A stretch of DNA of 64,000 bases from the NCBI RefSeq assembly GCF_004102725.1, contig NZ_LHQS01000002.1:983984-1047983 (forward strand). Reading direction: 5' to 3'. The notes under the pieces were generated by a model. It worked only from the letters and a program-made list of their open reading frames with translations. It did no database searches and was not told the DNA's origin. Every line of letters starts with the position of its first letter. The stretch's first letter is position 1. A program made the translations under genes and the position numbers. Below, one piece after another: positions 18,490 through 64,000 of the stretch. The DNA is from Methanoculleus taiwanensis (GTDB taxonomy: Archaea > Halobacteriota > Methanomicrobia > Methanomicrobiales > Methanoculleaceae).

Positions 18490-18521
18490 ATCAGGGTGCA
18501 TTGAACCTGCGGGTGATTCCG

Positions 18522-21500
18522 ATGAAGCTTATCTATCTTGCGATCCTGACTCTCCTCCTCTTCTGCAGCGGCGTCTCTGCGATGCTGCCGGGTGAGAACG
18601 AAACGTTCGCCGAACCTGCTCTGACCACGGCAGTCGGGGACAACTCCTCCGTCGCGCCGGAACCCCTTGACCCTCCGATAGATCCGTGTGAGGAGCAGGA
18701 GGACCTCCCGCAGCCCGACGATACCCCCATCGCCGTACCCTTCTGCACCGGGGATACACCGGAGTACGCCCTTCTCCCGGCAGGCATGGAAGACCGCCCC
18801 CTCTATGCACCGGACAGCATCATCGTCCAGTTCCAGCCCGGGGTGGCGGAGGATATCTCTCTGATGGCGGTGACCGCCGATCGGGTTCATGCTCGCCACG
18901 GAACATACCTCCGGCAGGACTTTTCAGAAAAAGGCCTTGCCGGCCTGCAGGTGGTCGGCCTTCCGGAGGATCTCAGCGTGCCTGATGCGGTCGCGACCTA
19001 CCGGCAGGATCCGGCCGTCCTCTACGCCGAGCCGAACTACTACTGCTACCCGGACCGGATACCCGATGACCTGTACTTCTCCTACCTCTGGGGGCTCCGG
19101 AACACCGGGCAGACCGTCGGCGGCCAGGCCGGCACCGCCGGTGCGGACATCGCCGCTCCTGGCGCCTGGGATATCACCACGGGCTCAAAAGAGGTCGTCG
19201 TCGCGGTCCTCGACTCCGGGGTGTACCAGCAGCACCTCGACCTCGTCGATAACTTCTGGCGCAACCCTGGTGAAACGGCAGACGGGAGCGATACGGACGG
19301 CAACGGCTACGTCGACGATCTCTACGGCTGGGACTTCTACGACAACGACAACGACCCGGACGATCTGAACGGGCACGGGACGCACTGTGCGGGGACGATC
19401 GCCGCGGCCGGGAACAACGACCTGGGCGTCGCCGGGGTGATGTGGACGGCGAAGATCATGCCGCTGCGGTTCAGCGGCCCGAACGGTGTCGGCACCATCG
19501 CCGGTGCGATCAACGCGATCACCTATGCGAAGAATAACGGTGCCCACATCATCAGCAACTCGTGGGGGACGCCGGGCTACTCGGAGTCGCTGAAACAGGC
19601 CATCGACGCGTTCGACGGCGTCGTTACCTGTTCAGCCGGAAATGACGCCTCGGATAACGACGCTTCGCCGCGGTATCCGGGCTCTTTCAACAGCTCGCAT
19701 ATCATCGCGGTCGCCTCGACCGACAACCGGGATGCCCTCTCCTCCTTCTCAAACTACGGCGCAACCACGGTAGACCTCGCCGCGCCCGGCACCAACATCT
19801 ATAGTACCTTCATCTACTTCGACCGGGAGGAGCGGTTCGCCGACACGATGGCCACCCTGAACAACTGGTCGACGTCAGGTACGTGGGGCCTGAATACGAC
19901 CGTATACCAGTCATCGCCCGGATCGGCATCCGACAACCCCTTCGGGAACACGACGCCGGTCGGAGAGTCCTGGCTGCTTATGGCGAACAACGTGACGCTC
20001 GGCGACTACTGCCTTCCGGAGCTCACGTTCTGGTGCAACTACTCCCTCACCGCCGGGAATAACCAGCTCGCCATCTACGCCTCGTCCCCGACGGTGGCCA
20101 ATACGTACTACCCTATCGGAGCACGCAGGGGGAGTTCGAACGGCGGATGGACGAAGATTTTCATCTCGTCATCCACCATACTCACAGCATACAAGAATAA
20201 CGGGTTTACAGCGATACCGAAGGATCTGAAGTTTGCACTCATACTTATGAGGGATAACACCACGGCGCCCGACTACGTGTACGTCGATGACGTCTCGGTC
20301 ACCGAGGTGACGCAGGTCCTCCCCAATTACGGATATATGAGCGGCACCTCGATGGCCACCCCGCACGTCGCCGGGCTTGCCGGCCTCCTGAAGGCCTACA
20401 ACACGTCCCTGACAACATCGCAGGTGCGGGGCGTCATCCTCGCAACCGTCGATCCGCTCCCGGCTCTTGCGGGCAGGACCGCGACCGGCGGGCGGATCAA
20501 CGCCACGAAGGCGCTTTCGGCGGTGTACCTCAACGCCAGCCTCACCGCAAACCGGACGAGCGGCACCGTGCCGCTGACGGTCGGGTTCAACGACACCTCT
20601 ACCGGGATGAACTATACGTGCCTGTGGTCGTTCGGGGACGGGAATACCTCGGTCGAGCAGAACCCGGTCTTCACCTACACGACGAACGGCACGTACACCG
20701 TGAACCTGACGATCACGAACGCCTACGGGGCGAACACCACCTCGCGGGCAAACCTCGTCACCGTCACCGCACCGGACGAACCGACGCCGACGCCGACCGC
20801 CACGCCGACGGCGACCCCCACCCCGACGCCGACCGTCACCCCGACGGTCACCCCCACCCCGACGCCGACTCACAGTCCGCCGCACACCTGGGTCACCTAT
20901 CTCGGCACCGAGACCGTCCGCCTTGCCTGGCCTGACAGCAGCCCGCTGAAGGGCACCTCGCATGACGGCGGCTATTACGTCTACCGTGACGGCACCGGGA
21001 GGGTCTGGCAGGATGCCGGAACCAGTCTTGTCGATTATAAAGTGCCCGGCAGCCAGCACACCTATGAGGTCTTCTGCTACAACAAGACCTCACAGAAACT
21101 GGAGTGTCCGCTCGGCGGTCCGGTAACGGTCGGTTTCGGCCGGACGGTCGGCGGCGACCTGCCGACCGAGACCTCCATCTTTGATGTCTGGGATGCAGAC
21201 GGCGGCACGCTGACGCTCTTTGACGACACCCGGCTCACCGATCTGGCGGGCTCCCGGCTTGAGATACGCGACGCCACCCTCGTGGCCGAGAACGGCACCT
21301 GTATCACCGGCCCGGGCTCGCTCATCCTGCAGGATACCACTCTTTCGGGCGTCCTCGTGGACATCTCGCGGGGAGGCTCAGACAATAAAGCGCTGAGCAC
21401 CTACGGCACCATCAACACGGACAGCCCGATCATCGTGCAGGACAGCGACCTCCTGCTTCTGGACATCGCTTCGACATCCTCGCTCGACGTGACCGGGGAG

Positions 21501-24500
21501 AGGAACCGGATCCAGTCCTGCACCGGTATGATCACGGTAACCGGGAACGGTACCTATGTCGGCGGCTGCAGTGGGGAGGGATACGCCGGGATCTCCGTGA
21601 AAGGAGAGAATGCCGTTATCGAGGACAATGTACTGCAGAACATCTGGCACACCCTGTACGACGAACGCTACGGCATCTGGCTCAGCGACGGGTCAGGGAG
21701 CATCATCCGGAACAACACCGTCACGAACGTCACCGCGTGGTCAACCTGGGGCGACGGCATCAGGCTCGGCACAGCGAACGGGAACCCGGTCGAGAATATC
21801 ACCATCGAGGATAACCGGATAGACGGGGTTACGGGCGTCGGCATACGGCTGCTCGTCGACACCGAACTCCTCACGATCCAGGGCAATGCGATCCGGAACA
21901 CGACGCATCACGGGATCTATGCAGAGCGTGAATCCACCACGCCGGCCACCCCCCGCTTCTTTGAGATCTGCGGGAACACAATTGATACCACGGGGACGTA
22001 CTGTATCTACCTCGCCGGGAGCAACGGCTACATCGAGAACAACACCCTTGCGAACGTCAACGCTGCAATCCGGCTGCACGGCAACGGATTTACCGTCTGC
22101 AACAACAGCGCCACCGCGATCAGCGGTGCATACGGGCTCTCCGGCGCGGAAGCCGCGATCGCGGTCTACGGAAACGATACGGTCATCAGCGGAAATGCGG
22201 TAGCGGAGTATACCGGCGTCCAGAACAGCGGGCTGCAGTACGGTATCCGGATCGAGGGTGAGTACGGCCTCCTCCGGAACAACACGGTGGAGCGGTACTT
22301 CTCAGGACTGGATATCATCGGTACCAACCATACCGTGACCGGAAACGTCCTTCGGACAATCTCCGGCACCCCGATGAATCACCACGTCGTCAACTTCTCA
22401 GCCGACGCCTCGCTCTTCGCCGAAAACACCATCATCAACACCACCCAGCCGTCGTGGGCGCGTGGCGTGGTCTACGTCGCCGGGGTGGGAGAGAATACCT
22501 TCCAAAACAACCTGATCGACTCCGGCAAAAACGGATTCTACTGCACAAAGATCAAGAACGGCACGGTCATCGAGGAGAATGCCATTACAAACGTAACGGT
22601 AAGCGGCATGTATCTGTACCAGGTGTACGGCGGCGATGCGGCCACCGGCGAGGGCTACTCGGATCTGCAGGTGCTGAACAACACCATCGCCGGCAAGAAC
22701 CAGCAATGGAGCAGCGCCGTCTCGATCGACCGGGTCGACGGGATCCGGGTATCCGGGAACGCAATCCGGGACTTCGTCTCCGGCATCGAGACGTATCAGT
22801 TGACGAAGGACACCATAATCTCAGAAAACACCGTCGAGCGGGGGTCGCAAGCCCTCTCCCTGAAGGGGACGGGCGATTGGATATGCGAAAATACCTTCTG
22901 CAACTACACCACCCAGGGAGTCTACCTCGAAAACCCCGTCGGCACGCTCCTTCGGAACAACACCATCCTGAACGCCGGAAAGAGCGTTCTCCCCGCCATC
23001 CGGGTGAACACCTACGCAGCGGACGCATTTGCGATCGAGCGAAACACCATCGGCAACATGACCCACCGGACGACCTTCTCCATCACGGGGAGCAGCAACG
23101 GTCTTGTAATAAAACCGGTCCTGACCCCTCCGGCACCCCCGAAGTACCCCGACTACCCCTTGAACCGGGCGCCGATCGGCCAGTGGATCGATATCAACAC
23201 CTACAACGCTGTCCGGAGCGACCCCTTCCGGTTCAACCTCACCTTCCACTACGCACCGGAGGACCTCGTCGGGGTCGGCGCCGAGAGCCTCTCGGTGTGG
23301 CGGCATAACACCAGCGGCTGGAACGCCGGGGGCGGCGACGCCGCGTGGAACAAAACCCGATGGCTCGACACCACCGCTCACGAGGTCGGCGTGCAGGTCA
23401 CCAGTCTGCCGCCGTATACGGCGGATGCGGTCGTCTTCGCACCGCTCGGGAACATGCCGGTGCACAACCTCAACCTCGAGCGGGACTACGGGACGATCAC
23501 CGAGGCGCTCGCCGACGAAGACCTCGCGGGCGGCCACACCATCGTCGTCGATTCCGGCTACGCCGGGCAGGAGAACCTGAAGATCGGAAAGTCCATCAGC
23601 CTGCTCGCAACCTCAGGCCTTCCTTCGGACGTACGCGTGACCGCACAGGATCCGACAAAGCCGGTCGTCGATCTGATCGGTGAGGGGTCGACGGTTGCCG
23701 GGTTCGTCTTCGAGGGTGCGACATCATCGCAGGGCGTCCTCGTCGACGGCGGCACGAAGATCACGATCCGGGACTGCACCGTCCGGGGCAACCGGGAAGG
23801 AGTGGTCGTCCAGCCGTTCAGCGCCTATACCGAGTTGAAATCGACGAACTGCAGCATACTCGGGACGACCGTCACCGGAAACATCCAGGGGGGCGTCCTG
23901 ATCGTCGAGGGCTCCGGGCATACCGTTCAGAACTGTATCCTCTCGGATCCCCATCTCGGGATTGGGCTTGAGAACGCGACAGAGAGCCGCATCTCCGGAA
24001 ACACCTTCACCGGCTGCGATGAGAAGGGCATCTGGATCATCGGGGGCGAGAAGAGCACGGTCACCCGCAACACGCTTGCCGGCGGAGAGCAGGGAATCCT
24101 CCTCGACCGGACCTGCGAGAGCATTCTTCAGGAGAATACGGTTGCAGATGCGACCGAAGCCGGGATCACCCTCCTTGAGTCGCACCAAACGACCCTCACC
24201 GCCGAGAACGTCTCGGCCTCACCGGTCGGCATTCTCCTCGACGGTGCGGACGACAACACCCTCACCGGCTGCATGGTCACCGGTGCCCCGGACGGGCGGG
24301 AGACGACCGGCATTCTGATTCGCGAGTCCGATCGAAGCACCCTTACCGGCTGCCGGATCGCGAACATCACCTCGCAGAATCACGCGGTGACGGGGATCCG
24401 CCTTACCGGGAGTTCGACGGCGGCCACGATCACCGATACGGTCATCGCATCGGTCACCGCCCCGAAGATCGCCGGCGCCGTCATCGGGTCGGGGAGCCAG

Positions 24501-25718
24501 GGGACGGGCATCGCCAACCTGACGGTGCGCGACCTCGCCGGCGGCGGGTCAGGGGTGGTCGGGGTTGCCATCGAACCGAATACGGGCGGTGCCCGGATCG
24601 ACCGCTCGGCGATGACGGACCTCCGTGCGACCGGGAACGTCACGGCGATAGCCGCCGATCGTGCCGCCGCCGCTGCCGTCAGGATGACCGCGATCGACCG
24701 GATCAACTCGACCGGCGGGGAGGCGTTCGGAGTCCTCGTCAACGCCAGCACCGGGATGATCCTTGAGAATCTCACCGTCACCCGGGTAACCGGCACCGGA
24801 GACCGTGCCGCTGTCGCGCTCCTCTCGAGCGACAATGCCACTCTCGGGTTCTTCGAGGTCGGCGATGCGCACCCCGTCCTCTGCAACCTCACCGCAACCG
24901 GTTCGATCCGGATCAGCGGTGTGGACGCTCCCCCGACAGCTCCCGACGGGATGCAGGCGATCGGGAGGTTCGTTGCGATCAGCAACACCACTCCCGCAGA
25001 GGCTGCGATCAAGATGTACTATACCGCTGCAGATCTCGACGGCGTCACTCCGTCGTCGCTCCGTATCTGGCGGCATGCAGACGCCTGGTCGCGGGTACAG
25101 GGGATGAACGGGGTAGATACGGAGAACCGGTTCGTCTATGCGACGGCGAGCGAGTTCGGCGTCTTCGCACCGCTCCAGGAACCGGTCATCGTGCCGCTCG
25201 TTACCAGTCCCGCGGCGGCGCCGGCGGTCATCCCGACCGATACCGACGGCACCCCGGGAGTGGGCGAGACCGCAGAGCTCTCCGTGAAGGTTACCGGGGG
25301 GAGCATCGCATCGGTGACGGTGAACCTCTCCGGGCTCGGCGGGCCCGCGGCGGCAGCGATGGCAGATGCCGGGAACGGCGTCTGGACGGCGAGCACGGCC
25401 GGCACCCTCCCGTCGCCGTTCGGTGACGGCGCCTACCTGCCGGTGCTCCTGCCCGTGAACGCGACGAGCACGGACGGCGTCAGCAACACCACGGTCTCCA
25501 TCCCGCTCACGGTAGTGAAGAACGGCGACGCCAACGGGAACAACCGGGTCACGCTCTACGACGCCGTCTACACCGCTCGGCACGTCCTCGAAATGGAGGG
25601 CTACCCGATGACCGAGAGCGTCGGCATGGTCGCGGGCGGCGATACGCTCTCGCTCCACGACGCGATGTGCCTCGCAAAGCACCTGCTCGGCATTCCCGGA
25701 TTTGCAGAGCTGCACTGA
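18522..25718 (+). CDS. Giant secreted subtilisin-like protease with PKD, beta-helix and dockerin regions
   Basis: The protein has 2398 residues. A signal peptide (1-20) leads to an inhibitor-like propeptide (about 90-180), then an S8 protease with Asp231 (VLDSGV), His285 (NGHGTHCAGT) and Ser610 (SGTSMATPHVAG). About 170 residues resembling a beta-sandwich are inserted between the Asn region and Ser610 (about 430-600). Next come a PKD domain (about 675-755, SFGDGNTS), a Thr-Pro linker, a beta-sandwich stretch, and two long right-handed beta-helix regions with NosD-like repeats (GNxIxN). A shared module with GGGDAAWNKTRWLD separates the two helices. The C-terminus is dockerin-like (GDANGNNRVTLYDAV). 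It is probably cell-surface or extracellular and may bind polysaccharide. ATG at 18522 follows GGTGA; TTG at 18501 is an unlikely alternative. Confidence 0.93.
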   Translation: MKLIYLAILTLLLFCSGVSAMLPGENETFAEPALTTAVGDNSSVAPEPLDPPIDPCEEQEDLPQPDDTPIAVPFCTGDTPEYALLPAGMEDRPLYAPDSIIVQFQPGVAEDISLMAVTADRVHARHGTYLRQDFSEKGLAGLQVVGLPEDLSVPDAVATYRQDPAVLYAEPNYYCYPDRIPDDLYFSYLWGLRNTGQTVGGQAGTAGADIAAPGAWDITTGSKEVVVAVLDSGVYQQHLDLVDNFWRNPGETADGSDTDGNGYVDDLYGWDFYDNDNDPDDLNGHGTHCAGTIAAAGNNDLGVAGVMWTAKIMPLRFSGPNGVGTIAGAINAITYAKNNGAHIISNSWGTPGYSESLKQAIDAFDGVVTCSAGNDASDNDASPRYPGSFNSSHIIAVASTDNRDALSSFSNYGATTVDLAAPGTNIYSTFIYFDREERFADTMATLNNWSTSGTWGLNTTVYQSSPGSASDNPFGNTTPVGESWLLMANNVTLGDYCLPELTFWCNYSLTAGNNQLAIYASSPTVANTYYPIGARRGSSNGGWTKIFISSSTILTAYKNNGFTAIPKDLKFALILMRDNTTAPDYVYVDDVSVTEVTQVLPNYGYMSGTSMATPHVAGLAGLLKAYNTSLTTSQVRGVILATVDPLPALAGRTATGGRINATKALSAVYLNASLTANRTSGTVPLTVGFNDTSTGMNYTCLWSFGDGNTSVEQNPVFTYTTNGTYTVNLTITNAYGANTTSRANLVTVTAPDEPTPTPTATPTATPTPTPTVTPTVTPTPTPTHSPPHTWVTYLGTETVRLAWPDSSPLKGTSHDGGYYVYRDGTGRVWQDAGTSLVDYKVPGSQHTYEVFCYNKTSQKLECPLGGPVTVGFGRTVGGDLPTETSIFDVWDADGGTLTLFDDTRLTDLAGSRLEIRDATLVAENGTCITGPGSLILQDTTLSGVLVDISRGGSDNKALSTYGTINTDSPIIVQDSDLLLLDIASTSSLDVTGERNRIQSCTGMITVTGNGTYVGGCSGEGYAGISVKGENAVIEDNVLQNIWHTLYDERYGIWLSDGSGSIIRNNTVTNVTAWSTWGDGIRLGTANGNPVENITIEDNRIDGVTGVGIRLLVDTELLTIQGNAIRNTTHHGIYAERESTTPATPRFFEICGNTIDTTGTYCIYLAGSNGYIENNTLANVNAAIRLHGNGFTVCNNSATAISGAYGLSGAEAAIAVYGNDTVISGNAVAEYTGVQNSGLQYGIRIEGEYGLLRNNTVERYFSGLDIIGTNHTVTGNVLRTISGTPMNHHVVNFSADASLFAENTIINTTQPSWARGVVYVAGVGENTFQNNLIDSGKNGFYCTKIKNGTVIEENAITNVTVSGMYLYQVYGGDAATGEGYSDLQVLNNTIAGKNQQWSSAVSIDRVDGIRVSGNAIRDFVSGIETYQLTKDTIISENTVERGSQALSLKGTGDWICENTFCNYTTQGVYLENPVGTLLRNNTILNAGKSVLPAIRVNTYAADAFAIERNTIGNMTHRTTFSITGSSNGLVIKPVLTPPAPPKYPDYPLNRAPIGQWIDINTYNAVRSDPFRFNLTFHYAPEDLVGVGAESLSVWRHNTSGWNAGGGDAAWNKTRWLDTTAHEVGVQVTSLPPYTADAVVFAPLGNMPVHNLNLERDYGTITEALADEDLAGGHTIVVDSGYAGQENLKIGKSISLLATSGLPSDVRVTAQDPTKPVVDLIGEGSTVAGFVFEGATSSQGVLVDGGTKITIRDCTVRGNREGVVVQPFSAYTELKSTNCSILGTTVTGNIQGGVLIVEGSGHTVQNCILSDPHLGIGLENATESRISGNTFTGCDEKGIWIIGGEKSTVTRNTLAGGEQGILLDRTCESILQENTVADATEAGITLLESHQTTLTAENVSASPVGILLDGADDNTLTGCMVTGAPDGRETTGILIRESDRSTLTGCRIANITSQNHAVTGIRLTGSSTAATITDTVIASVTAPKIAGAVIGSGSQGTGIANLTVRDLAGGGSGVVGVAIEPNTGGARIDRSAMTDLRATGNVTAIAADRAAAAAVRMTAIDRINSTGGEAFGVLVNASTGMILENLTVTRVTGTGDRAAVALLSSDNATLGFFEVGDAHPVLCNLTATGSIRISGVDAPPTAPDGMQAIGRFVAISNTTPAEAAIKMYYTAADLDGVTPSSLRIWRHADAWSRVQGMNGVDTENRFVYATASEFGVFAPLQEPVIVPLVTSPAAAPAVIPTDTDGTPGVGETAELSVKVTGGSIASVTVNLSGLGGPAAAAMADAGNGVWTASTAGTLPSPFGDGAYLPVLLPVNATSTDGVSNTTVSIPLTVVKNGDANGNNRVTLYDAVYTARHVLEMEGYPMTESVGMVAGGDTLSLHDAMCLAKHLLGIPGFAELH
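20779..20871 (+). repeat. Thr-Pro linker repeat inside the protease gene
   Basis: About 90 bases of CCGACG/CCGACC/CCCACC triplet-pair units encode an alternating Thr-Pro linker between the PKD domain and the following beta-sandwich. It is coding, in frame, and prone to length change by slippage. Confidence 0.8.
25544..25718 (+). repeat. Dockerin-coding 3' end, copy 1 of a near-identical pair
   Basis: These 175 bases match 29051-29225 with six mismatches counted by eye. Only one mismatch lies in the last 125 bases. It encodes the C-terminal dockerin-like half ending in GIPGFAELH. Confidence 0.9.
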
Positions 25719-41989: not shown

Positions 41990-44900
41990 ATGCATGTCAG
42001 TGAGCTAAGTGCGGAAATACGAGCTGAAGTATTCGATATACTGAGCGGTGCGGAGGAGGAGCCATGCATCGCCACTCAGGAGACGGAGGTGCTCTGGATC
42101 AACCCGGCTATGGAACGTCTTGCGGGCATCTCCGCCGGGGACGCCAGAGGAAGCGATCTGCTGCAGTTCGTCGCCGCCCGGGTGCTGCCGCAGGCGGATG
42201 AAGCGTGCACCGATGCGGTCATCTCGTCAATCCGAAACCGCACCGACGAGCACGAGATAACGTGCCGGGTAGCCGGGCCGGCGGGTGAAGCGTGGTACGC
42301 ATATACGAGCAGGCAGCTTGGGAAAGGCGCTCTCGCGGGCATCCGGATACACCGGTTCAGAGAGATCACGCGGGAGGAGAAAGCAGCGAGAGAACACGAA
42401 CGGTGTTTCGGTGATCTGGCGTTCCTCTCCAGAGCCGCAACCGGACTTGCCGGACTGCCGCCGGATGCGGATATCTTCGCCGCCATCGGCAGCTACCTCC
42501 ACGAGCTCGCGCCCGACTCGATCGTCATCGTGAGCGCTGCCGATGCCCGGGCCGGAACCCTGACGCCTCGCGCCATCTTCGGGATGGAGTACTGCCTTCC
42601 CGAGGTCGCCACGCTCCTCGGTCGGGATATTACCGGGATCACGCTCAACCTGCCCCGGACTATCCGGGATATCATGGTTCGCGGCGAGATCGAGGAGATC
42701 GAGGGGGGACTTGAAGCGGTGGCGCTCTGGCAGATTCCGCTGGACGCCTGCCGGAAGCTCGAGGAGGCCGGTGGGCTCGGGGCGATGTACTGCATCCCGT
42801 TCACCTGGAAAGGGGAGGTCTTCGGCACCGCCGTCATCCTCACCCGCCGGGAGGGAGCGCCGGTTCACCTCGGGTCTCTCGATACCTTCAAGAATCTGGC
42901 GGCTATCGCCGTGCAGCGTCACCAGGCCGAAAACGAGCTGCGCCGGAGCGAAGAGACGTTTCGGGCGCTTATCGAGAAGACCTCCGACTTCATCCTCATC
43001 CTCGACGAACAGATGAAGATCCGGTTCGCAAGCCCGCCCATCGAGCGGATTGACGGAATATCGCCGGAAATGCTGGTGGGGAGGAGTGCGTTTGAGATGA
43101 TGCTGCCCGAAGAGGTGCCCCGGGCAGAGGAGATCATAGCGGATCTGGTGCAGAGACCGGGAGGCAGCGTGCCGTTCGAAGTCCGGTTCAGGGGAATGCG
43201 GGGCATGCACGTGATAGAGGCGGTTATCACAAACCTCCTCGACGACCCCCGTATCCGGGGGATTGTGGTAAACGCACGGGACATTACGAGACGAAAACGG
43301 GCGGAAGAGGCTCTACAGCGGGCGGAACGGGATAAAGCGCTGATCCTGAACTCGACGGCCGAGATGTTCGCCTACTACGACACAGATCTCCGGGTGCTCT
43401 GGGTCAACCAGGCTGCCGCCGCATTCATCGGCAGGAGACCTGAAGACCTGGTCGGGCATTTCTGCTACGAGATCTGGCACGGCCGTACGGGCGTCTGCCA
43501 GGGGTGCCCGGTGATCCTTGCCCGGGAGACCGGAAAGCCCCACGAAACGGAGATCACCACGCCTGACGGGAGGGTGTTCTTCCTCCGTGGGTATCCCGTG
43601 CTCGATGAGGAGGGGACGGTTATCGGGCTCATCGAGTTCGGGCAGGATATCACCGACCGAAAGCGGGCAGAGCAGGAACTGCGGATCAAGGATCTGGCCA
43701 TAGCATCCTCGCTGAACGCCATCACCCTCACCGATCCCGCGCAGAAGGTGCTCTACGTCAATCAGGCCGTCCTCGACCTCTGGGGGTATGCCGCGCCTGA
43801 AGACGTCCTCGGAAGACCGGTCTCCATCTTCTGGGCAGATCCGGGGGATCCGGAGATGGTGACGGATGCCCTGCGCAGGGAGGGGCGCTGGTCCGGTGAG
43901 TTGCCGGCCCGGCGAAGGGACGGTACGGTATTCCCCGTGCAGGTCAGCGTCGTTCAGGTCACCGCCGAGGACGGCACGCCTCGCATCAGCGTGGGCTCAG
44001 CGATCGACATCACCGAGCAGAAACAGGCAAAAGAGGCGCTTGAAGCAGCAAACGCCTACAACCGGAGTCTCATCGAGGCCAATCTCGACCCGCTCGTCAC
44101 CATCGGCTCCGACGGCAGGATCACCGACGTGAATACCGCCACCGAGCAGGTGACCGGGTATACACGCGACGAGCTGATCGGGACGGATTTTTCCGATTAC
44201 TTCACCGATCCCGCAGGGGCGAGGGCAGGATACCGGAAAGTCTTTGCGGAGGGGCAGGTGCGGGACTACCCGCTGGAGATCCGGCACCGCGACGGATCGA
44301 CGACCCCGGTGCTCTATAATGCCACCGTCTACCGCGACGAAGAAGGGACGGTCACCGGCGTCTTTGCGGCGGCACGGGACATCACGGAACGAATCCGGGC
44401 GGAAAAGGCAATACAGCGCCGCAGTACTGAGATCTCAATGCTGAACCGGTTGATCCGCGTCTCGGCATCGGCTCTTACGCTCGACGAGCTCCTCGAGTCT
44501 GCACTCACCACATCCCTCGCCCTCTTCAGCTTCGACGTCGGTGCTATCTACCTGCTCGACCGGGAACGAAACAGCGCAAAGCTCATGCGTTACCGGGGTG
44601 CGGAGCGGGCGCCGGGGCTCAAGACCGTCAACGTCCTGCACCACCCCTTCGATGATATCTTCGTTGCCGGCAGGTTCCGGAGCATCTCTGCCGGGCCGGC
44701 GATCGGTGAGGCGGAGGAGGAGGTTCTGGCTGCGTTCGGGGTCTCCTCGCTCACCTGGATCCCGCTCGTGGCCGAGTCAAGGGTCGTCGGGGCGATGGCC
44801 CTCGGGAGTGTTGCGGGCAGGCAGGCATTCCCGGACGTCCGGTGGCTCATGGAGGCGATCAGCAGGGAGATCGGGGCGGGGATTCTGCGTGCGATACTGT

Positions 44901-45568
44901 ATAAACAGCGGGAGGCGGCAAACCAGGAAGCCAACCTGTACCTTGACATTCTCACGCACGACATCCGGAACGTCAACACCGTCGCCACCATGTATACCGA
45001 CCTGCTCGTGGATATCCTCGAAGGAGACCCGAAGACGTATGTCCTGAAGATGAAGGGCAGTATCGAGAAGAGCACGGAGATCCTGGCGAATGTCGCCACG
45101 ATCCGTAAAATCCATGTAGAACGTGCTCCGCTGAAACCGATCGACCTTCACGGGGTCGTCCTTGCCGAGCAGAAGAACTTCCCCGATACCGCGATCACCT
45201 ATGAGAACACCGCTTACACGGTTCAGGCAGACGATCTCCTCCCCGAAGTCTTCAATAACCTCATCGGGAATGCCGTCAAGTTCGGCGGCCCTGACGTCGC
45301 CGTTACCATATCCGCCGAGAGATCCGGCGACAGCGTCATCGTCACCGTGGCCGATACCGGCCCCGGCATTCCCGATGACCTGAAGGAGGGAATCTTCCAC
45401 CGGTTCGAGCGGGGGCAGACCCGGGCGCGGGGGGAGGGGCTCGGACTCTACATCTGCCGCAAACTCATGGAGCGTTACGGCGGGAGTATCTGGGCAGAAG
45501 ACCGGGTGCCCGGCCGGTCGGAGAAGGGTGCGGCATTCCGGTTTACCCTCAAGGAGGTCAGGGAGTGA
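41990..45568 (+). CDS. PAS/GAF sensor histidine kinase, first gene of a two-gene module
   Basis: The 1192-residue cytoplasmic sensor has PAS (about 15-125), GAF (about 140-305), four PAS domains (about 320-790; the second has CYEIWHGRTGVCQGC, a possible metal or redox site), a second GAF (about 805-970), then the kinase core. The H-box is ILTHDIRN with His990, and the ATPase has an intact N-box NNLIGNAVKFGG, DTGPGIPDD and GEGLGLYICRKLM. No transmembrane helix is present, so the signal is internal. The next gene, 79 bases on, is a PAS protein ending in an ATPase-less acceptor-like helix. Together they mirror the single fused protein at 2551-6879. No response regulator is nearby. Confidence 0.92.
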   Translation: MHVSELSAEIRAEVFDILSGAEEEPCIATQETEVLWINPAMERLAGISAGDARGSDLLQFVAARVLPQADEACTDAVISSIRNRTDEHEITCRVAGPAGEAWYAYTSRQLGKGALAGIRIHRFREITREEKAAREHERCFGDLAFLSRAATGLAGLPPDADIFAAIGSYLHELAPDSIVIVSAADARAGTLTPRAIFGMEYCLPEVATLLGRDITGITLNLPRTIRDIMVRGEIEEIEGGLEAVALWQIPLDACRKLEEAGGLGAMYCIPFTWKGEVFGTAVILTRREGAPVHLGSLDTFKNLAAIAVQRHQAENELRRSEETFRALIEKTSDFILILDEQMKIRFASPPIERIDGISPEMLVGRSAFEMMLPEEVPRAEEIIADLVQRPGGSVPFEVRFRGMRGMHVIEAVITNLLDDPRIRGIVVNARDITRRKRAEEALQRAERDKALILNSTAEMFAYYDTDLRVLWVNQAAAAFIGRRPEDLVGHFCYEIWHGRTGVCQGCPVILARETGKPHETEITTPDGRVFFLRGYPVLDEEGTVIGLIEFGQDITDRKRAEQELRIKDLAIASSLNAITLTDPAQKVLYVNQAVLDLWGYAAPEDVLGRPVSIFWADPGDPEMVTDALRREGRWSGELPARRRDGTVFPVQVSVVQVTAEDGTPRISVGSAIDITEQKQAKEALEAANAYNRSLIEANLDPLVTIGSDGRITDVNTATEQVTGYTRDELIGTDFSDYFTDPAGARAGYRKVFAEGQVRDYPLEIRHRDGSTTPVLYNATVYRDEEGTVTGVFAAARDITERIRAEKAIQRRSTEISMLNRLIRVSASALTLDELLESALTTSLALFSFDVGAIYLLDRERNSAKLMRYRGAERAPGLKTVNVLHHPFDDIFVAGRFRSISAGPAIGEAEEEVLAAFGVSSLTWIPLVAESRVVGAMALGSVAGRQAFPDVRWLMEAISREIGAGILRAILYKQREAANQEANLYLDILTHDIRNVNTVATMYTDLLVDILEGDPKTYVLKMKGSIEKSTEILANVATIRKIHVERAPLKPIDLHGVVLAEQKNFPDTAITYENTAYTVQADDLLPEVFNNLIGNAVKFGGPDVAVTISAERSGDSVIVTVADTGPGIPDDLKEGIFHRFERGQTRARGEGLGLYICRKLMERYGGSIWAEDRVPGRSEKGAAFRFTLKEVRE

Positions 45569-45647
45569 TCGGGGCAGGCGCTCCTGACCGGAAGCAGCAG
45601 ATCGGAGATGAACACGCACAGCAGGCAACTTCCCTCTACACGGAACA

Positions 45648-48188
45648 ATGACGTCCATACAACAGATCGAAGAGCAGCATGCGTTCACGGTCTTTGACGA
45701 GGAAGCCGACGGCATCCTCGTGCTGGATGGAGACCGAACGGTGGTCTGGCTCAACAGGACGCTTCAGAATCTCCTGGACGTACGTCTGGAGGGTGCCAGA
45801 GGAGAGAGCGTTTCGGTCTTCATCCGGAAGTACGTGGCACCGCTGTCGCCGGACACGGCAGCCCTGAAGGAGGTCGCTTCGGACCTGCAGAACAACAGGA
45901 GTGTCCACCGGCTGCCGGTACCTCTCCGGGCGGGCACCGGGAGCCTTCGCTGGTTCTCGATCGCGTATGAACGGAACGGAGCGTCTGCCGGAACCGACCG
46001 CAGGATTCTCCGTTTCCACGACAGCACCGAAGATATGACCGCCCGGTTCTTCCGGGCATCCATCGACCACTCGCCGGTCTTCGTCTTCGCGCAGGATACG
46101 AATCTCCGGTACATCTGGTCGTTCAATCAGCAGTTCGGTTTCTCCGAAGCGTCGGTCGTCGGAAAGACGGATTACGACCTCTTCTCGCCCGCCGACGCGG
46201 AACGGCTGACGTTGCTGAAGAACCGGGTGCTTGAGACCGGCGACGTGGTCAGGGAGGAGGTGCCGTTCACGATCGGCGGAACGGAGCACTTCAGCGACGT
46301 GACGCTGGAACCCCTCCGGGATGCCGGCGGGAGAATCGTCGGGGTATCGGGCACGTCGTTCGACGTCACCGACCAGGTGCGGGCCAGGGAGCAGTGCCGG
46401 TCGAGCACGGAGAGCTTAAACCTCCTGCTCAGAAACGCCCGCGACGTTATCTACCGCATCGACCTCGTCCCGGAACGCCGGTACTCCTACGTCAGCCCTG
46501 CTGTAGCGGCAGTTACCGGCTACACGCCCGAAGAGCACTATAGGGATCCCGATATCGGCAGGAAGATGGTTCATCCCGACGATCTGCCGCTCCTTGACGC
46601 GTCTATCCGGGGAGAGACCCCGCAGGATCGGCCGCTCACCCTCCGGTGGATCAGGAAAGACGGAACGGTGATCTGGACGGAACAGCAGAACGTCCCCGTC
46701 TACAACGAGAAAGGGGCGCTCGTTGCCGTCGAAGGCATCGCCCGGGACATCACGGAGCGCAAGCAGATGGAGGAGGCGCTGCGGGAGAGTGAAGAGCGGT
46801 ATCGTCTCTTCCTTCAGAACTTCCAGGGGATTGCGTTCCGCGCCGACCTCGACTTCGTGCCGATCTTCTGCTACGGTGCGGTGGAGGCCATCACCGGCTG
46901 TTCGGAAGAGGAGTTCTGCAGGGACCGGCAACTCTGGTACCGGATGATCCATCCCGACGACCGTCCGCGCCTTGCCGAGTCCTCAACGAAGCTGCGCACC
47001 GTCCCCGGTTATGCGACCGAGCGGGAATACCGGATCATCAGAAAGGACGGGGAGATCCGGTGGATCCGCGAGATGATCCAGAACGTTACCGGAAGCCGGG
47101 GAGTCCCGGTTCACGTGCAGGGGGCGGTCTACGATATTACCGAACAGAAGCAGGTGGAGCGGGAACTCCGCGAGAGCGAGGAGCGGTTCCGGCGCATCTT
47201 CGAAGAGTCGGGGATCGGCATACTGGTCGTCGACCAGAGCGGCAGGATCGTCAGGAGCAACCCGGCCTTCCAGGCGATGCTGGGATATGGCGAGGAAGAG
47301 CTGACCGGTATGCACATCCGCGATATCACCTACCCGGACGATCTGCCGGCGACCCTCGCGCTCTATGAGAGGATGGCCGCTGGAGGAAGGAAGCGTGAGA
47401 AACTGGAAAAGCGGTATGTCACAAAGGACGGCCGGATCATCTGGGGGCGTAAGACCGTCACCCACCTTCGGAACCCGGAAGGAGAATCCCTGCGCTCCAT
47501 CAGCCTTGTGGAGGATATCACCGGACGAAAACTGGTTGAAAAAGCGCTCCGCGAGAGCGAGGAGCGCTTCCGGAGCATATTCGAGGAGTCTCCCATCGGC
47601 ATAGAGTACTATGATGCGGACGGCCGCCTGATCGACATCAACCCCGCGGCGCTTCGCATCTTCGGTGTCCGGGATCCACGTGACGTCAGAGGGTTCGACC
47701 TCTTTGCAGACCCCAATTATCCGGAAGAGGAACGCCGGAACGTAAAGCAGGGTGCGGCGGTGCACTTCACGACGGAGTACGACTTCGATCTGGTCACGGA
47801 GCGCGGGCTCTACCGGACATCGCACGCAGGCCGGCGGTATCTGGACGTCCTCGTCACCGGGATACAGCGGGAAGGCGAGAGCCGTCTCGACGGGTATGTC
47901 GCGCTGGTCTCGGAGATCACCGACCGGGTACGGGCAGAAAACCTGCGGAAGAAGGCATACGAACAGATCGAGCAGAACATCGAGCAGTTTGCTATCCTCG
48001 GCGATCACGTCCGCCAGCCCCTGCAGGTGATCCTCGGCATCGTCGACCTGGAAGGCGACGGAAGAGCGGAGATGGAGACCATCCGCACCCAGGTTCACCG
48101 GATCAACACTATCATCAAGCAACTTGACCAGGGATGGATCGAGTCGAGGCAGATCCGGGAGTTCCTCCGGCGGCACGAACTGACATGA
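45648..48188 (+). CDS. Multi-PAS protein ending in an ATPase-less phosphoacceptor-like helix pair
   Basis: The 846-residue protein has six PAS domains (about 15-765, for example FRRIFEESGIGILVVDQSG) and then a tail of about 75 residues. That tail has an H-box-like helix, QFAILGDHVRQPLQV (His787), and a second helix ending LDQGWIESRQIREFLRR. It stops there, so there is no ATP-binding domain. The same tail ends the proteins at 60899 and 2551 and the partial gene at 63889. It follows a complete kinase by 79 bases and is probably co-transcribed. The likely role is a substrate, partner or phosphatase for that kinase, or a dimer partner; this is inferred. The ATG at 45648 has only a weak ribosome binding site. 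Confidence 0.88.
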   Translation: MTSIQQIEEQHAFTVFDEEADGILVLDGDRTVVWLNRTLQNLLDVRLEGARGESVSVFIRKYVAPLSPDTAALKEVASDLQNNRSVHRLPVPLRAGTGSLRWFSIAYERNGASAGTDRRILRFHDSTEDMTARFFRASIDHSPVFVFAQDTNLRYIWSFNQQFGFSEASVVGKTDYDLFSPADAERLTLLKNRVLETGDVVREEVPFTIGGTEHFSDVTLEPLRDAGGRIVGVSGTSFDVTDQVRAREQCRSSTESLNLLLRNARDVIYRIDLVPERRYSYVSPAVAAVTGYTPEEHYRDPDIGRKMVHPDDLPLLDASIRGETPQDRPLTLRWIRKDGTVIWTEQQNVPVYNEKGALVAVEGIARDITERKQMEEALRESEERYRLFLQNFQGIAFRADLDFVPIFCYGAVEAITGCSEEEFCRDRQLWYRMIHPDDRPRLAESSTKLRTVPGYATEREYRIIRKDGEIRWIREMIQNVTGSRGVPVHVQGAVYDITEQKQVERELRESEERFRRIFEESGIGILVVDQSGRIVRSNPAFQAMLGYGEEELTGMHIRDITYPDDLPATLALYERMAAGGRKREKLEKRYVTKDGRIIWGRKTVTHLRNPEGESLRSISLVEDITGRKLVEKALRESEERFRSIFEESPIGIEYYDADGRLIDINPAALRIFGVRDPRDVRGFDLFADPNYPEEERRNVKQGAAVHFTTEYDFDLVTERGLYRTSHAGRRYLDVLVTGIQREGESRLDGYVALVSEITDRVRAENLRKKAYEQIEQNIEQFAILGDHVRQPLQVILGIVDLEGDGRAEMETIRTQVHRINTIIKQLDQGWIESRQIREFLRRHELT

Positions 48189-48234: not shown

Positions 48235-48609
48235 ATGACCGTGGCGTTGACCGGGCAGGAGGGGAAAACTCTCGGGTTTCTGCTCCGGGGCAGGCTCACC
48301 GAAGCCGATTACACCGAAGTCCTGCTTCCGGCGCTTGATGCGGCGATCGACCAGCACGAGGAGATCCGCGTCCTGCTGCAGGTGAAGGATTTCGAGGGCT
48401 GGACCGTCGGGGGCGCATGGGAAGACCTGACGAACTGGCCGAAATGGCGGCAGATCGAGCGGATGGCCGTCGTAACCGACGAGTCGTGGGATACGGTGAT
48501 GACCTGGATGATGAAGGTTTTTGCAGGCCTCACCGATATGGATCTGCAGTTCTTCAGGGAAGAGCGACTCGCCGAGGCGTGGGACTGGCTGCATCGGCCG
48601 GAGGCGTAG
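48235..48609 (+). CDS. SpoIIAA-like (STAS-fold) protein
   Basis: The 124-residue protein matches the SpoIIAA-like family (DUF3478): LGFLLRGRLTEADYTEVLLPALDAA, a central LLQVKDFEGWTVGGAWEDL, then RMAVVTDESWDTVM and a terminal amphipathic helix. The family has a STAS-like fold and has been linked to membrane or lipid-binding roles; its function is not settled. The start is supported by GGAGGGG. It is convergent with recQ, the stops being 16 bases apart, and follows the kinase module by 46 bases, so it might be co-transcribed with it. Confidence 0.85.
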   Translation: MTVALTGQEGKTLGFLLRGRLTEADYTEVLLPALDAAIDQHEEIRVLLQVKDFEGWTVGGAWEDLTNWPKWRQIERMAVVTDESWDTVMTWMMKVFAGLTDMDLQFFREERLAEAWDWLHRPEA

Positions 48610-58245: not shown

Positions 58246-58569
58246 TGCTGACAGGTGGATCCGGGGATGCTATGAATCTATCTGATGAACTGCTCTTTCC
58301 GGGATCCGGGACTGTAAACTGCCTGGAGTCCGGCCTGAACGGTCATCCCCCGGTACGTGGGCGGGAGAACCGTATCACGGATCTCTCCCGTGAGGCGGCA
58401 GATCCCGAAATGGATGGGACTGTCGCGGATATTCCCTGCAGGAACCGTGGTTATTCCGGGAAATACCTCGCGCGCCTGATCACCATAATTCTCTTATCGG
58501 ATGGCATATTATTTAATTACCGTAATATAATTGAGTGAATAATTGAAATACGGGGGGTTAGCCGATACC
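58246..58569. other. Intergenic region with AT-rich promoter of the kinase
   Basis: No gene is recognised. The last 60 bases are AT-rich (TATTATTTAATTACCG, then TAATATAATTG near 58523-58533), the likely promoter of the kinase at 58570. Confidence 0.4.
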
Positions 58570-60939
58570 ATGAACTATACCGAGACACTTGATTTCGATC
58601 CTCTGCAGGCCTTCTCGATCCTTGGCGAGCCGAGCATCGGCATCCTCGTGCTGGATCGCGACCGGAACGTGCTCTGGTGCAATGATGCCGTACGGGATAT
58701 CATCGGCATTCCTCCCGATACCGCCATCGGGAAGAATGCCCTGCAGATCATCGACACCTACCTGCTGCCGCGATTGCAGGACCCTGCATGTGCTCATTGC
58801 CTGCGAAACCTCCTGCATGCCGAGACGGAGCCCCCGCCGTGCGGGTGCCTGATTCATACGGCTTCCGGCGAGACCTGCCTGCTCTCGTGTTCCTGCCAGT
58901 ATATCCCGACAGGACCGTTTCAGGATATGATCGTCATCCGGTTCCGGGACATCTGCCGGCAGGAGTCATTCACCAGGGTTCATGCCCACAAAGCCCATCT
59001 CACGCTCCTCTCCGAGATATCCCGCCTGTTCGAGACCGAGGGCCTCTCGGCGGGCGAGATACTCACGGCGATCGCCGGGCTGTTGCCGACCGCTCTGCGC
59101 TATCCCGACCAGGCATACGCCAGAATAGTGCTCGGCGATACGGTTCACGGCCGGGACGTTCCTGAAACACCCTGGAGACTGACGGCCGATCTCATCGTTC
59201 ACGGTAACCGGGACGGGGTGGTCGAGGTGGGCTACACGAAGCAACCTCCCGGAGAGGCGGGCGAAGTATTCCTCCGGGAAGAGTCGGTCTTCCTGCACCT
59301 GGCCGCCGGGATGATCGGCCGGCTGCTCGGCCGGCTGCAGACGGCAGAGGTGCTCGAACGGCAGACTGCCCTGCTCGATCTCACGCACGATGCCGTTACC
59401 GTCTGGGGCATGGACGGGCGGATCACCTTCTGGAACCGGGCTGCCGAAGAGGAGTACGGATGGCGCGGCGACGAAGCACTGGGGCAGGTGACGCACGATC
59501 TCCTGCAGACGCACTTTCCGACCTCGCTTGAATCCAGTATCGCCGAACTCGTCCGTACGGGGCACTGGGAGGGCGAACTTGTAAAGTTCCGCCGTGACGG
59601 ATCACGCGTCGTCGTTGCGACCAGATGGGCGCTCCAGCGGGGGAGCGACGGAAAACCTCTCTCAATCCTCGAGATCAACAGCGACATCACCGGGAGAAAA
59701 TGTGCGGAAGCGGAGATAAGGATGCGCAACAGCCAGCTCGCCGTGCTCAATCAGATCATCACGGTCTCAGCTTCGGCACTCTCGTTCGACGAGCTGATGG
59801 AGGCGTCGCTCTCAAAGACCATGGAGCTCCTGGACTTCGATCTCGGCGTTGCGTACCTGCTCGACAGTGAGCGCACCCGGGCGCTCCCGAAATACCGCCG
59901 GGGAACGCCCGCATCCCTGCACCATCGCCAGCGCTTTGTCAGTATCCACAACTGGCCGTATAACTTCGTCTTCATCGCCGGTCAGGCACGATACTTCGAG
60001 CAGCAGGAGCAACTGGGCTCGATGGAAGCGGAGCTCCTCCGCGAATACGGCGTCCGTGCGCTTGCCGCCATCCCGCTCGTCGCCGAGTCGGTCGTCGTCG
60101 GGGCGATCTTCGTCGGAAGCAGGGAGAAAGAGTCGTTCTCCCTCCCGGAAAAGAACCTGCTCGAAGCGATAGGCAAGGAGATCGGAGCCGGCGTACTGCG
60201 GAGTATGCTGCATAAAAAGCTCGAGGCCGCCAACCGCGAAGCGAACCTCTACATCGACATCCTGACCCACGACATCAGGAACGCCGAGAACGTCGCAAGT
60301 CTCTACTCCGACCTCCTCGTCGAGATGCTCGAAGGCTCCGCCGCCGAGTACGCCGATAAAGTCCGGACGAATATTATGAAAGGGACGGAGATCATCAAGC
60401 ACGTCTCCACGATCAGGAAGGTTCACCAGGAACCCGTTCTCCTCCGGCCGGTCCACCTCGACTCCGTCGCCAGAGACGAACTCCGGGATATTCCGAACGT
60501 CACCTTACAGTTCCGCGGCTCGGTTCCCGAGGTCTGGGCGGACGAGTTTCTCGGGGAGCTCTTTAAAAGCCTCGTCGGCAGCCGCATACGGTACATCGGT
60601 CCCGATGCTGCTATCACCGTGACGGTGGAGGAGTCGTCGGACGAAGTGCTGGTCTCGGTGGAGGATTCCGGGCCGGGTGTGCCGGACGAGGTGAAAGAGG
60701 ATATATTCCACCGGTTTGAGCCGGAGAAAGGCCTGGGTACCGGCACCTATCTCGGGCTCTACGCTGCACGGCTGATCGTCGAGCGCTACGACGGCCGCAT
60801 CTGGGTGGAAGATCGGGTCGAGGGAAGTCCCGAACTCGGGGCGGCATTCCGGTTCACGCTGAGAGCCGTCCTTCCGGAAGACCGTAACCTGCCGGGGTAT
60901 GAGGAGACCCTTCCTGGAGAAGAGTCCCGTGGTGGATGA
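58570..60939 (+). CDS. PAS/GAF histidine kinase with degenerate ATPase N-box
   Basis: The 789-residue protein has a Cys-rich PAS domain (about 10-125; PACAHCLRN, PPCGCLIH), a GAF-like region (about 130-260), PAS (about 265-375) and GAF (about 390-555). The phosphoacceptor helix is ILTHDIRN with His567. The ATPase domain keeps DSGPGVPDE and a G2-like GTYLGLYAARLI. The N-box, however, reads FKSLVGSRIRYIG where the other kinases here have NNLIGNAVKFGG. Both asparagines are lost (Ser671 replaces the Mg2+-binding one), so ATP use is doubtful. ATG 58570 is preferred over TTG 58543. The next gene overlaps its end by 41 bases or, with a GTG start at 60929, by 11. Confidence 0.88.
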   Translation: MNYTETLDFDPLQAFSILGEPSIGILVLDRDRNVLWCNDAVRDIIGIPPDTAIGKNALQIIDTYLLPRLQDPACAHCLRNLLHAETEPPPCGCLIHTASGETCLLSCSCQYIPTGPFQDMIVIRFRDICRQESFTRVHAHKAHLTLLSEISRLFETEGLSAGEILTAIAGLLPTALRYPDQAYARIVLGDTVHGRDVPETPWRLTADLIVHGNRDGVVEVGYTKQPPGEAGEVFLREESVFLHLAAGMIGRLLGRLQTAEVLERQTALLDLTHDAVTVWGMDGRITFWNRAAEEEYGWRGDEALGQVTHDLLQTHFPTSLESSIAELVRTGHWEGELVKFRRDGSRVVVATRWALQRGSDGKPLSILEINSDITGRKCAEAEIRMRNSQLAVLNQIITVSASALSFDELMEASLSKTMELLDFDLGVAYLLDSERTRALPKYRRGTPASLHHRQRFVSIHNWPYNFVFIAGQARYFEQQEQLGSMEAELLREYGVRALAAIPLVAESVVVGAIFVGSREKESFSLPEKNLLEAIGKEIGAGVLRSMLHKKLEAANREANLYIDILTHDIRNAENVASLYSDLLVEMLEGSAAEYADKVRTNIMKGTEIIKHVSTIRKVHQEPVLLRPVHLDSVARDELRDIPNVTLQFRGSVPEVWADEFLGELFKSLVGSRIRYIGPDAAITVTVEESSDEVLVSVEDSGPGVPDEVKEDIFHRFEPEKGLGTGTYLGLYAARLIVERYDGRIWVEDRVEGSPELGAAFRFTLRAVLPEDRNLPGYEETLPGEESRGG

Positions 60940-62185
60940 GGTTTTGGATCGAACGCTCCTGACGGGGGATGCCGACAGAGAGCGAGCGGGATATCCTGAT
61001 ACTCCGGTGCTGCGGGTCGCGAAAGACGGCGAGGTGCTCGGCGCGAACGAGGCGGCACTCCCGCTGCTTGCCCACTGGAATCTCCTCATCGGGGATCGGC
61101 TCCCGGGTCGGTGGATCGGCGTGGTCGATCTCGTCTTGAGGAGCGGGGAGAAGGAGCGGATCGGTATCCTGACCGGGACGAAGGCCTGCTCGCTTACGTT
61201 CACCCCGGTCGGCGACGGTGAGGGCGTCACCATCTCCTTTCAGGAGGCCGCCGGGAGCAGAGGTGCCGGGGAACTCTGCAGCATGGGAAGCGGCGTCGCC
61301 ACCTTCGAGGCGCGTGACGACGGCAGGTACTTTGTCGTCACGTCGCTCAACCCCGCGGCAGGCCGGGCGGGCGGCAGTTCGCCGGGTGCAGAGTTCCCCG
61401 GGTTCGTCGATACGCTCCGGCGGGTCTGGAGGACGGGCAGTCCCGAACAGATCCCGATGCGGTGCTCCCGGGCAGGCCAGCCGGTCGTCTGGGGCGAGAT
61501 CTACGTAAACCGCCTCCCTTCGGGGTATCTCGTCGCCGTCTTTGACGACAGAACGGCACAAAAAAGGATAGAGACCTCCCTCATCGAGAGCGAAGAGAAG
61601 TTCCGGGGCATCACCCAGCGCAGCTTCGATATGATCTTCACCGCCGACCCGGCCGGGGTGATCACCTATGCTTCGCCTGCGGTGCACCGCATCCTCGGAT
61701 GCGAGCCCGCCGCGATCACCGGCAGGAGGTGCCGGGAGTACATCGCCCGTCACAACCGTTCCGCATTCTCCCGTGCAACCGGGCAGCTGCTTGCAGGGAA
61801 GGATGTGGAAGGACTGATCCTCGAATGTGTGCGGGACGACGGCTCTCCCGTCTTCGTGGAGATCAACGCATCCCCCATCGTCAGGAACGGCGTTGTCACG
61901 GGTATCCAGGGGGTCGGGAGAGACGTCACCGAACGGATCGCCGCGGAAGATCTGAAGAAACAGGCCTACGACCAGATCGACCGCAACATCGAGCAGTTCG
62001 CGATCCTCGGCGACCATATCCGCCAGCCGCTCCAGGTGATCCTCGGCATTGCGGATATCATCGGTGACGAGAAGAGCGAGATCCTTGCCCAGCAGGTACG
62101 GAGGATCAACAATATCATCAGGCAGCTCGACCAGGGCTGGATCGAGTCACGAAAGGTGCAGGAGTTTCTTCGGCGGTGCGGCTGA
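60899..62185 (+). CDS. PAS protein ending in an ATPase-less phosphoacceptor-like helix pair
   Basis: The 428-residue protein has a divergent PAS-like N-terminal region, a clear PAS domain (about 235-355, FRGITQRSFDMIFTADPAG), and the tail of about 75 residues with QFAILGDHIRQPLQV (His373) and LDQGWIESRKVQEFLRR. No ATPase domain follows. The gene overlaps the end of the kinase at 58570, which signals translational coupling. GTG 60929, preceded by GGAGAAGAG, is a likely alternative start. It is the second example of this kinase-plus-tail arrangement. It probably serves as partner or phosphoacceptor for its neighbour. Confidence 0.86.
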   Translation: MRRPFLEKSPVVDEVLDRTLLTGDADRERAGYPDTPVLRVAKDGEVLGANEAALPLLAHWNLLIGDRLPGRWIGVVDLVLRSGEKERIGILTGTKACSLTFTPVGDGEGVTISFQEAAGSRGAGELCSMGSGVATFEARDDGRYFVVTSLNPAAGRAGGSSPGAEFPGFVDTLRRVWRTGSPEQIPMRCSRAGQPVVWGEIYVNRLPSGYLVAVFDDRTAQKRIETSLIESEEKFRGITQRSFDMIFTADPAGVITYASPAVHRILGCEPAAITGRRCREYIARHNRSAFSRATGQLLAGKDVEGLILECVRDDGSPVFVEINASPIVRNGVVTGIQGVGRDVTERIAAEDLKKQAYDQIDRNIEQFAILGDHIRQPLQVILGIADIIGDEKSEILAQQVRRINNIIRQLDQGWIESRKVQEFLRRCG

Positions 62186-63888: not shown

Positions 63889-64000
63889 TTACCGCTGGCC
63901 GTAGTGTTTCCGGAGGAACCGTCGCACCTTCTCGGACTCGACCCAGCCCCGGTCGAGCCGGTCGATGGTGCCGTTGATGAGCGCCGCCTGCTCGAGGATC
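63889..64000 (-). CDS. C-terminal end of a fourth kinase-tail protein (cut by window edge)
   Basis: The last 37 codons of a minus-strand gene read LEQAALINGTIDRLDRGWVE, then SEKVRRFLRKHYGQR, and stop with TAA at 63891-63889. This matches the end of the ATPase-less tail in the proteins at 2551, 45648 and 60899 (compare LDRGWIESRKIREFLRR). The sensor part and any acceptor histidine lie outside the window. Confidence 0.75.
   Translation of the reverse strand, partial: ILEQAALINGTIDRLDRGWVESEKVRRFLRKHYGQR

Follow-up and report, generated by a model that had tools for sequence, protein, structure and literature searches.

Archaea of this group encode many histidine kinases and few receiver domains. 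In the present genome, 49 HATPase matches stand against 18 receiver-domain matches, and none of the latter falls within the window, the stretch of 64,000 nucleotides (64 kb) that was analysed here; the absence of nearby response regulators noted in the original prediction was thus upheld. The window holds a histidine kinase gene followed by a gene for a PAS protein that ends in a domain resembling the DHp half of a kinase core, with no ATPase after it. Such a tail is a concrete candidate partner for the kinases of these organisms. The locus raises the question of whether the second protein is phosphorylated by the first, for which His787 in the tail had been proposed as the acceptor, or whether it communicates with the kinase in another way.

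The gene pair and its HisKA-related tail

The first gene (positions 41990–45568, + strand) encodes, according to the ORF list and Pfam, a sensor histidine kinase of 1192 amino acids with five PAS domains, one GAF domain, a THDIRN-class DHp domain and a HATPase_c domain (residues 1083–1189, positions 45236–45556, + strand; E = 1e-24). Its H-box reads LTHDIRN, in which the codon of the phosphoacceptor His990 occupies positions 44957–44959 (+ strand), and the N, G1 and G2 boxes are present, so that the earlier description of a complete kinase with an intact ATPase is confirmed. The second gene (45648–48188, + strand) follows head to tail after a gap of about 80 bp and encodes a protein of 846 amino acids. 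Six PAS domains span its residues 16–763 (45693–47936, + strand), and a DHp-like tail, a two-helix hairpin, forms its extreme C-terminus (residues 765–846, 47940–48185, + strand). The Pfam scan gave no HATPase_c match in this protein; the domain scans thus recovered both the six PAS domains and the ATPase-less end that had been read from the open reading frames, and the two tail motifs quoted at that time, His787 included, are present. The pair of kinase and tail gene is kept in all seven orthologous loci (the window itself and six relatives), among which the tail protein varies in length from 589 to 981 amino acids. Scans for promoters and terminators gave no signal above shuffled controls. 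The next gene downstream, which starts about 50 bp past the tail gene, encodes a SpoIIAA-like protein of 124 amino acids (48235–48609, + strand), and its membership of the unit is uncertain; it was considered as a fixed accessory gene and dropped, as it does not recur beside tail genes.

The kinase–tail arrangement occurs three times in the window. Besides the pair described above, a single protein of 1442 amino acids (2551–6879, − strand) combines PAS repeats, a DHp domain, HATPase_c (residues 874–977), more PAS domains and a tail (residues 1362–1441), and a second kinase with PAS, GAF, a THDIRN H-box and HATPase_c (58543–60939, + strand) lies upstream of another tail gene, encoding a PAS protein of 428 amino acids (60899–62185, + strand), the two ORFs overlapping by about 40 bp. 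A fourth tail gene (349 amino acids) lies only in part in the window (63904–64000, − strand) and extends beyond its edge. Orthologous-looking fusions of kinase, PAS and tail were also seen in three relatives. Elsewhere in the window, positions 18501–25718 (+ strand) encode a 2405-residue protein with a subtilase domain, PKD domains and right-handed beta-helix/NosD repeats, which is likely to be a large surface protein.

Judged by profile matches and predicted structure, the tail is a real and expanded domain, a DHp-type hairpin related to HisKA. HisKA (PF00512) was the only family matched by the window tail, with E = 0.0024 in the whole protein (residues 779–833) and 2e-5 when the tail was scanned alone. 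The score of the isolated window tail is 25.0 bits against a family cut-off of 26.9, several other copies from the same genome lie above this cut-off (up to 33.7 bits), and 80 of 81 diverse tail members match the family, the best at 2.6e-10; Pfam scans of the tails returned no HPt family. AlphaFold2 predicted the monomeric tail as an antiparallel hairpin of two helices (2–51 and 56–93; pLDDT 91.9), in line with the helical hairpin anticipated from the sequence, and when the last PAS domain was included, one continuous helix (129–172) was predicted to run from the last PAS strand into the first tail helix. The model gave only weak Foldseek matches to solved DHp domains, the best being the DHp domain of CpxA (E = 0.29).

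A search of the genome turned up the 80-residue tail in 19 full copies, a number far above chance expectation, plus one fragment, the 18 copies other than that of the window pair being 46–71% identical to it. The full copies end their protein or nearly so, and all keep NIEQFAILxDHIRxPLQVI and LDxGWxESxxIRxFL. The second of these belongs to a family signature lying beyond the HisKA model at the C-terminal end of helix 2, LDQGWIESRQIREFLRR in the window copy (48123–48173, + strand), within which LDxGWxES, R and F are nearly invariant across the family. Matches at E ≤ 0.001 were found in 136 of 393 genomes across the phylum. Strong matches occur almost exclusively in Methanomicrobiales and in a second family, probably the Archaeoglobaceae, which together have hundreds of copies. 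A plasmid search with the tail as query gave no match. No HATPase_c follows the tail: nearly every copy sits at the C-terminal end of its protein or close to it, and in the four fusions the ATPase precedes the tail. Descent of the tail from the THDIRN class of its partner kinases was considered and dropped, since profile comparison scores DHp domains of the HELRTPL type higher. Recoding was likewise weighed for in-frame TGA codons in the tail genes of some relatives; for L252, the one that was checked, the TGA is the normal stop, the ORF ending at 1731 and the match running one codon beyond.

Asp and His around the acceptor position

The original proposal depended on which residue of the tail occupies the position that takes the phosphate in HisKA kinases. 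This is position 11 of the HisKA model, where every bona fide kinase listed from the genome has His (HELRTPL, HDILNQ and HDINN types). All tails of the genome have Asp at this position and His at position 12, replaced once by Gln. In a PDB sequence search, the tail Asp fell without gaps over the acceptor His of EnvZ (His243). Alignment by profile to local DHp domains of three classes again placed the Asp at position 0, and when positions 0 and +1 were excluded and the register was judged from the flanks alone, the register with Asp at 0 exceeded that with His at 0 by 20–30 bits in all three classes. By these alignments, Asp786 (48003–48005, + strand), not His787 (48006–48008, + strand), holds the phosphoacceptor position of the window tail, His787 taking the +1 position that is acidic in kinases, and the His-Asp ('HD') of a normal H-box appears in the tails inverted to Asp-His ('DH'). 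Because the ungapped HisKA register puts Asp786 at the acceptor position, His787 would not be the phosphoacceptor.

The conservation of the two residues differs in the same sense. Asp occupies position 0 in 191 of 191 distinct tails, and in 108 of 108 when redundancy is reduced to 80%; Pro at +5 (191) and Ala at −4 (189) are similarly constant. The +1 position has His in 151 of the 191 (75 of the 108), with Lys, Gln, Gly, Glu, Arg or another residue in the remaining 40; Glu accounts for only seven. In the second family just 11 of 38 tails have His at +1, the substitutes being Lys, Gln, Gly, Arg and Glu. These counts bear directly on the explanation in which the adjoining kinase phosphorylates His787 and the tail serves as a phosphoacceptor or HPt-like relay. 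The homology to HisKA, the kinase genes that adjoin tails and the retention of the His by the majority of Methanomicrobiales copies (among those from Methanoculleus and its kin, 80 of 82) speak for it, and such a function was suggested by Galperin et al. (2018; PMC5847659). Nevertheless, the His lies one residue beyond the acceptor position, the residue after it is not acidic, and it is replaced in 27 of 38 second-family tails, whereas the neighbouring Asp never varies. We regard phosphorylation of His787 as very improbable. The H-box-like dimerization domain of the original prediction thus stands as far as the HisKA match and the hairpin are concerned, but its His sits at +1 and is not generally conserved across homologues.

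Since an invariant Asp replaces the acceptor His, signalling by contact with partner proteins, and not by phosphate, is probable. The reading that we favour for the window protein is that of a PAS sensor with a phosphoacceptor-dead DHp output that acts by contact, to which we assign a probability of roughly 0.5.

Kinase and receiver neighbours and the proposed mode of action

The gene company of the tails was surveyed in 152 distinct tail genes with enough flanking sequence, which form 67 orthologue-like clusters. Kinases and receivers were the most recurrent neighbours. A same-strand kinase adjoins 36 of the 152 genes and 15 of the 67 clusters, against a background of 18 in 782 genes (2.3%; P = 2e-9 on clusters), and a receiver gene adjoins seven tail genes in five clusters. 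The tail is fused behind a kinase in four proteins of one cluster, and an N-terminal receiver domain is found in six tail proteins of six clusters within this sample. In Methanomicrobiales, the kinases upstream of tails are mostly of the THDIRN class. PAS proteins with neither tail nor ATPase, of which 10 were found and two are kinase-adjacent, are too few to serve as an adjacency control, so a dependence of kinase adjacency on the tail, as opposed to PAS genes in general, cannot be shown. Tail genes thus lie beside kinases more often than background genes do, but for about 76% of them no kinase adjoins. Many tail proteins must consequently act in trans or otherwise, and because some tails are, in addition, found beside or inside receiver proteins, the tail is not a dedicated kinase substrate.

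Two further observations were made on these neighbourhoods. At one locus (G000 C1 518116–520283, L030), the tail gene adjoins a kinase ORF of only 158 amino acids with H-box and ATPase, which is possibly truncated or frameshifted. An iron-containing alcohol dehydrogenase-like gene lies directly beside tail genes, mostly upstream, in five clusters (e.g. L259 3953–5107), and a functional link between the two is possible.

In ten tail proteins, a receiver domain, PAS domains and the tail follow one another in a single chain, so that the tail is the output end of response-regulator-like proteins. In the second family, an overlap of 8–26 bp joins tail genes to a stand-alone receiver gene (L285 5157–7125, L286 3315–5988, L288 5338–8512, and also L291 and L293), which suggests translational coupling.

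Within the motif H-E/D-x-x-T/N of HisKA domains, phosphate goes to the His, the kinase reaction alone depends on the acid at +1, and the phosphatase reaction alone depends on the Thr or Asn at +4. Work on CrdS showed that kinase activity disappears when either the His or the +1 acid is lost, that the N375Q change at +4 leaves no measurable phosphatase activity, and that H371A retains most of it (PMC3510030). Asn stands at +4 in all 38 tails of the second family, in 39 of 50 from other Methanomicrobiales and in nine of ten receiver-fused tails. Together with the receiver genes that adjoin five of the 67 clusters, this distribution would fit a family of receiver phosphatases or phosphate sinks, kinase-minus and phosphatase-plus DHp domains that work through the +4 Asn; the CrdS phosphatase needs this Asn and largely not the His, and phosphatase activity was also among the proposals of Galperin et al. 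(2018; PMC5847659). In nearly all Methanoculleus-like copies, however, the +4 residue is Gln, His or Leu. That of the window copy is Gln790 (48015–48017, + strand), which corresponds to the change that abolished the CrdS phosphatase; the window, moreover, has no receiver gene. Among Methanoculleus-like loci, all 34 kinase-linked tails are of the Gln, His or Leu type and none of the eight Asn-type tails is kinase-linked, an association that is borderline (P = 0.05), is confounded by clade and can serve as a lead. For the family, we consider a phosphatase or sink function rather unlikely. For the window copy, the combination of Asp at 0, His at +1 and Gln790 at +4 would, by the precedent of CrdS, render it dead for both the kinase and the phosphatase reaction.

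A more modest role also has to be weighed, in which the tail merely caps PAS proteins as a dimerization or packing element and Asp786 is structural, for example as partner of an Asp-Arg i/i+3 salt bridge before a Pro kink. Arg at +3 (188 of 191) and Pro at +5 (191 of 191) come close to the Asp in their conservation, and two-component genes are lacking beside the majority of tail genes. A simple cap sits poorly, however, with the over-representation of kinases and receivers beside tails and in fusions with them, and with the conserved LDxGWxES...IRxFL signature outside the HisKA model, and we judge it rather improbable.

Returning to a phosphoacceptor-dead output acting by contact, the following steps can be proposed. 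The tail would dimerize as a four-helix bundle, as assumed from its family, and the state of the six PAS domains (or, in other copies, of a receiver domain) would pass down the continuous helix into it. The tail would then most likely contact the co-encoded kinase, either by forming a heterodimer or by touching the DHp or ATPase domain of the latter; the heterodimer of the original prediction may thus be one form of the complex. The kinase would thereby be tuned by the tail protein with no phosphate carried, the signal presumably running in this direction. In receiver-linked relatives, the tail might pass its state to receivers, and Asn-type copies may bind or dephosphorylate them. A two-protein sensor made of kinase and tail protein is plausible because the tail is a DHp-type hairpin, the pair is conserved in 7/7 loci and the window contains a natural kinase–PAS–tail fusion. 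Extended to all copies, this gives a tentative picture, less likely than not, of a large archaeal family of Asp-His DHp domains that serve as phosphate-free and ATPase-free outputs, in which receiver-linked copies would keep the phosphatase Asn (kinase-minus, phosphatase-plus) and kinase-linked copies, having lost this Asn as well, would be pure allosteric partners of orphan kinases.

Relation to known signalling proteins

Archaeal proteins of a 'HisKA, no HATPase' type, mainly from Archaeoglobi and Methanomicrobia, were described by Galperin et al. (2018), who counted seven each in A. fulgidus, M. marisnigri and M. petrolearia, noted that a His is conserved in them and proposed that they act as phosphoacceptors or phosphatases (PMC5847659). 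Judged by the description in that paper, the tail family is very probably this group: both comprise PAS/GAF sensors with a C-terminal HisKA-like domain and no HATPase. The present genome has 19 copies rather than seven, and fusions to and pairing with kinases and receivers come in addition. A His is common in the tails, but one residue off the acceptor position and missing in 40 of 191. The class has therefore been known since 2018, and what is new is the exchange of Asp and His; the literature searched was not found to describe the corrected register, the constancy of the Asp, the variability of the His or the statistics on linkage. This would correct the assumption of a phosphorylatable His in such proteins and draws attention to Asp786, not only to His787.

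Several known systems share features with the tail. The HisKA kinases EnvZ and HK853 have the same DHp hairpin and an H-box that aligns without gaps, but they carry His at 0, an acid at +1, Thr or Asn at +4 and a CA domain, whereas the window tail has Asp, His and Gln at these positions and no CA domain. RdmS/MsmS of Methanosarcina (MA_type 2) have lost the H-box and kept an ATP-hydrolysing CA domain (PMC11784639); they too are methanogen signalling proteins that miss one half of the kinase core, and the tail represents the reverse loss. DivL of Caulobacter contains PAS repeats, has its acceptor His replaced (Tyr550) and controls the CckA kinase pathway while acting without kinase activity (PMC4211667). 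The acceptor His is replaced in the tail as well, by Asp rather than Tyr, but DivL retains an ATPase (CA) domain, and because this domain is missing from the tail protein, the latter is not of the DivL type by its sequence features. RocA of group A Streptococcus is a pseudokinase that works through a true kinase, CovS, reportedly via its membrane segments (PMC7028121); it is a membrane protein, and its likeness to the tail is one of function. DivL and RocA offer the best parallels to the tail in functional terms.
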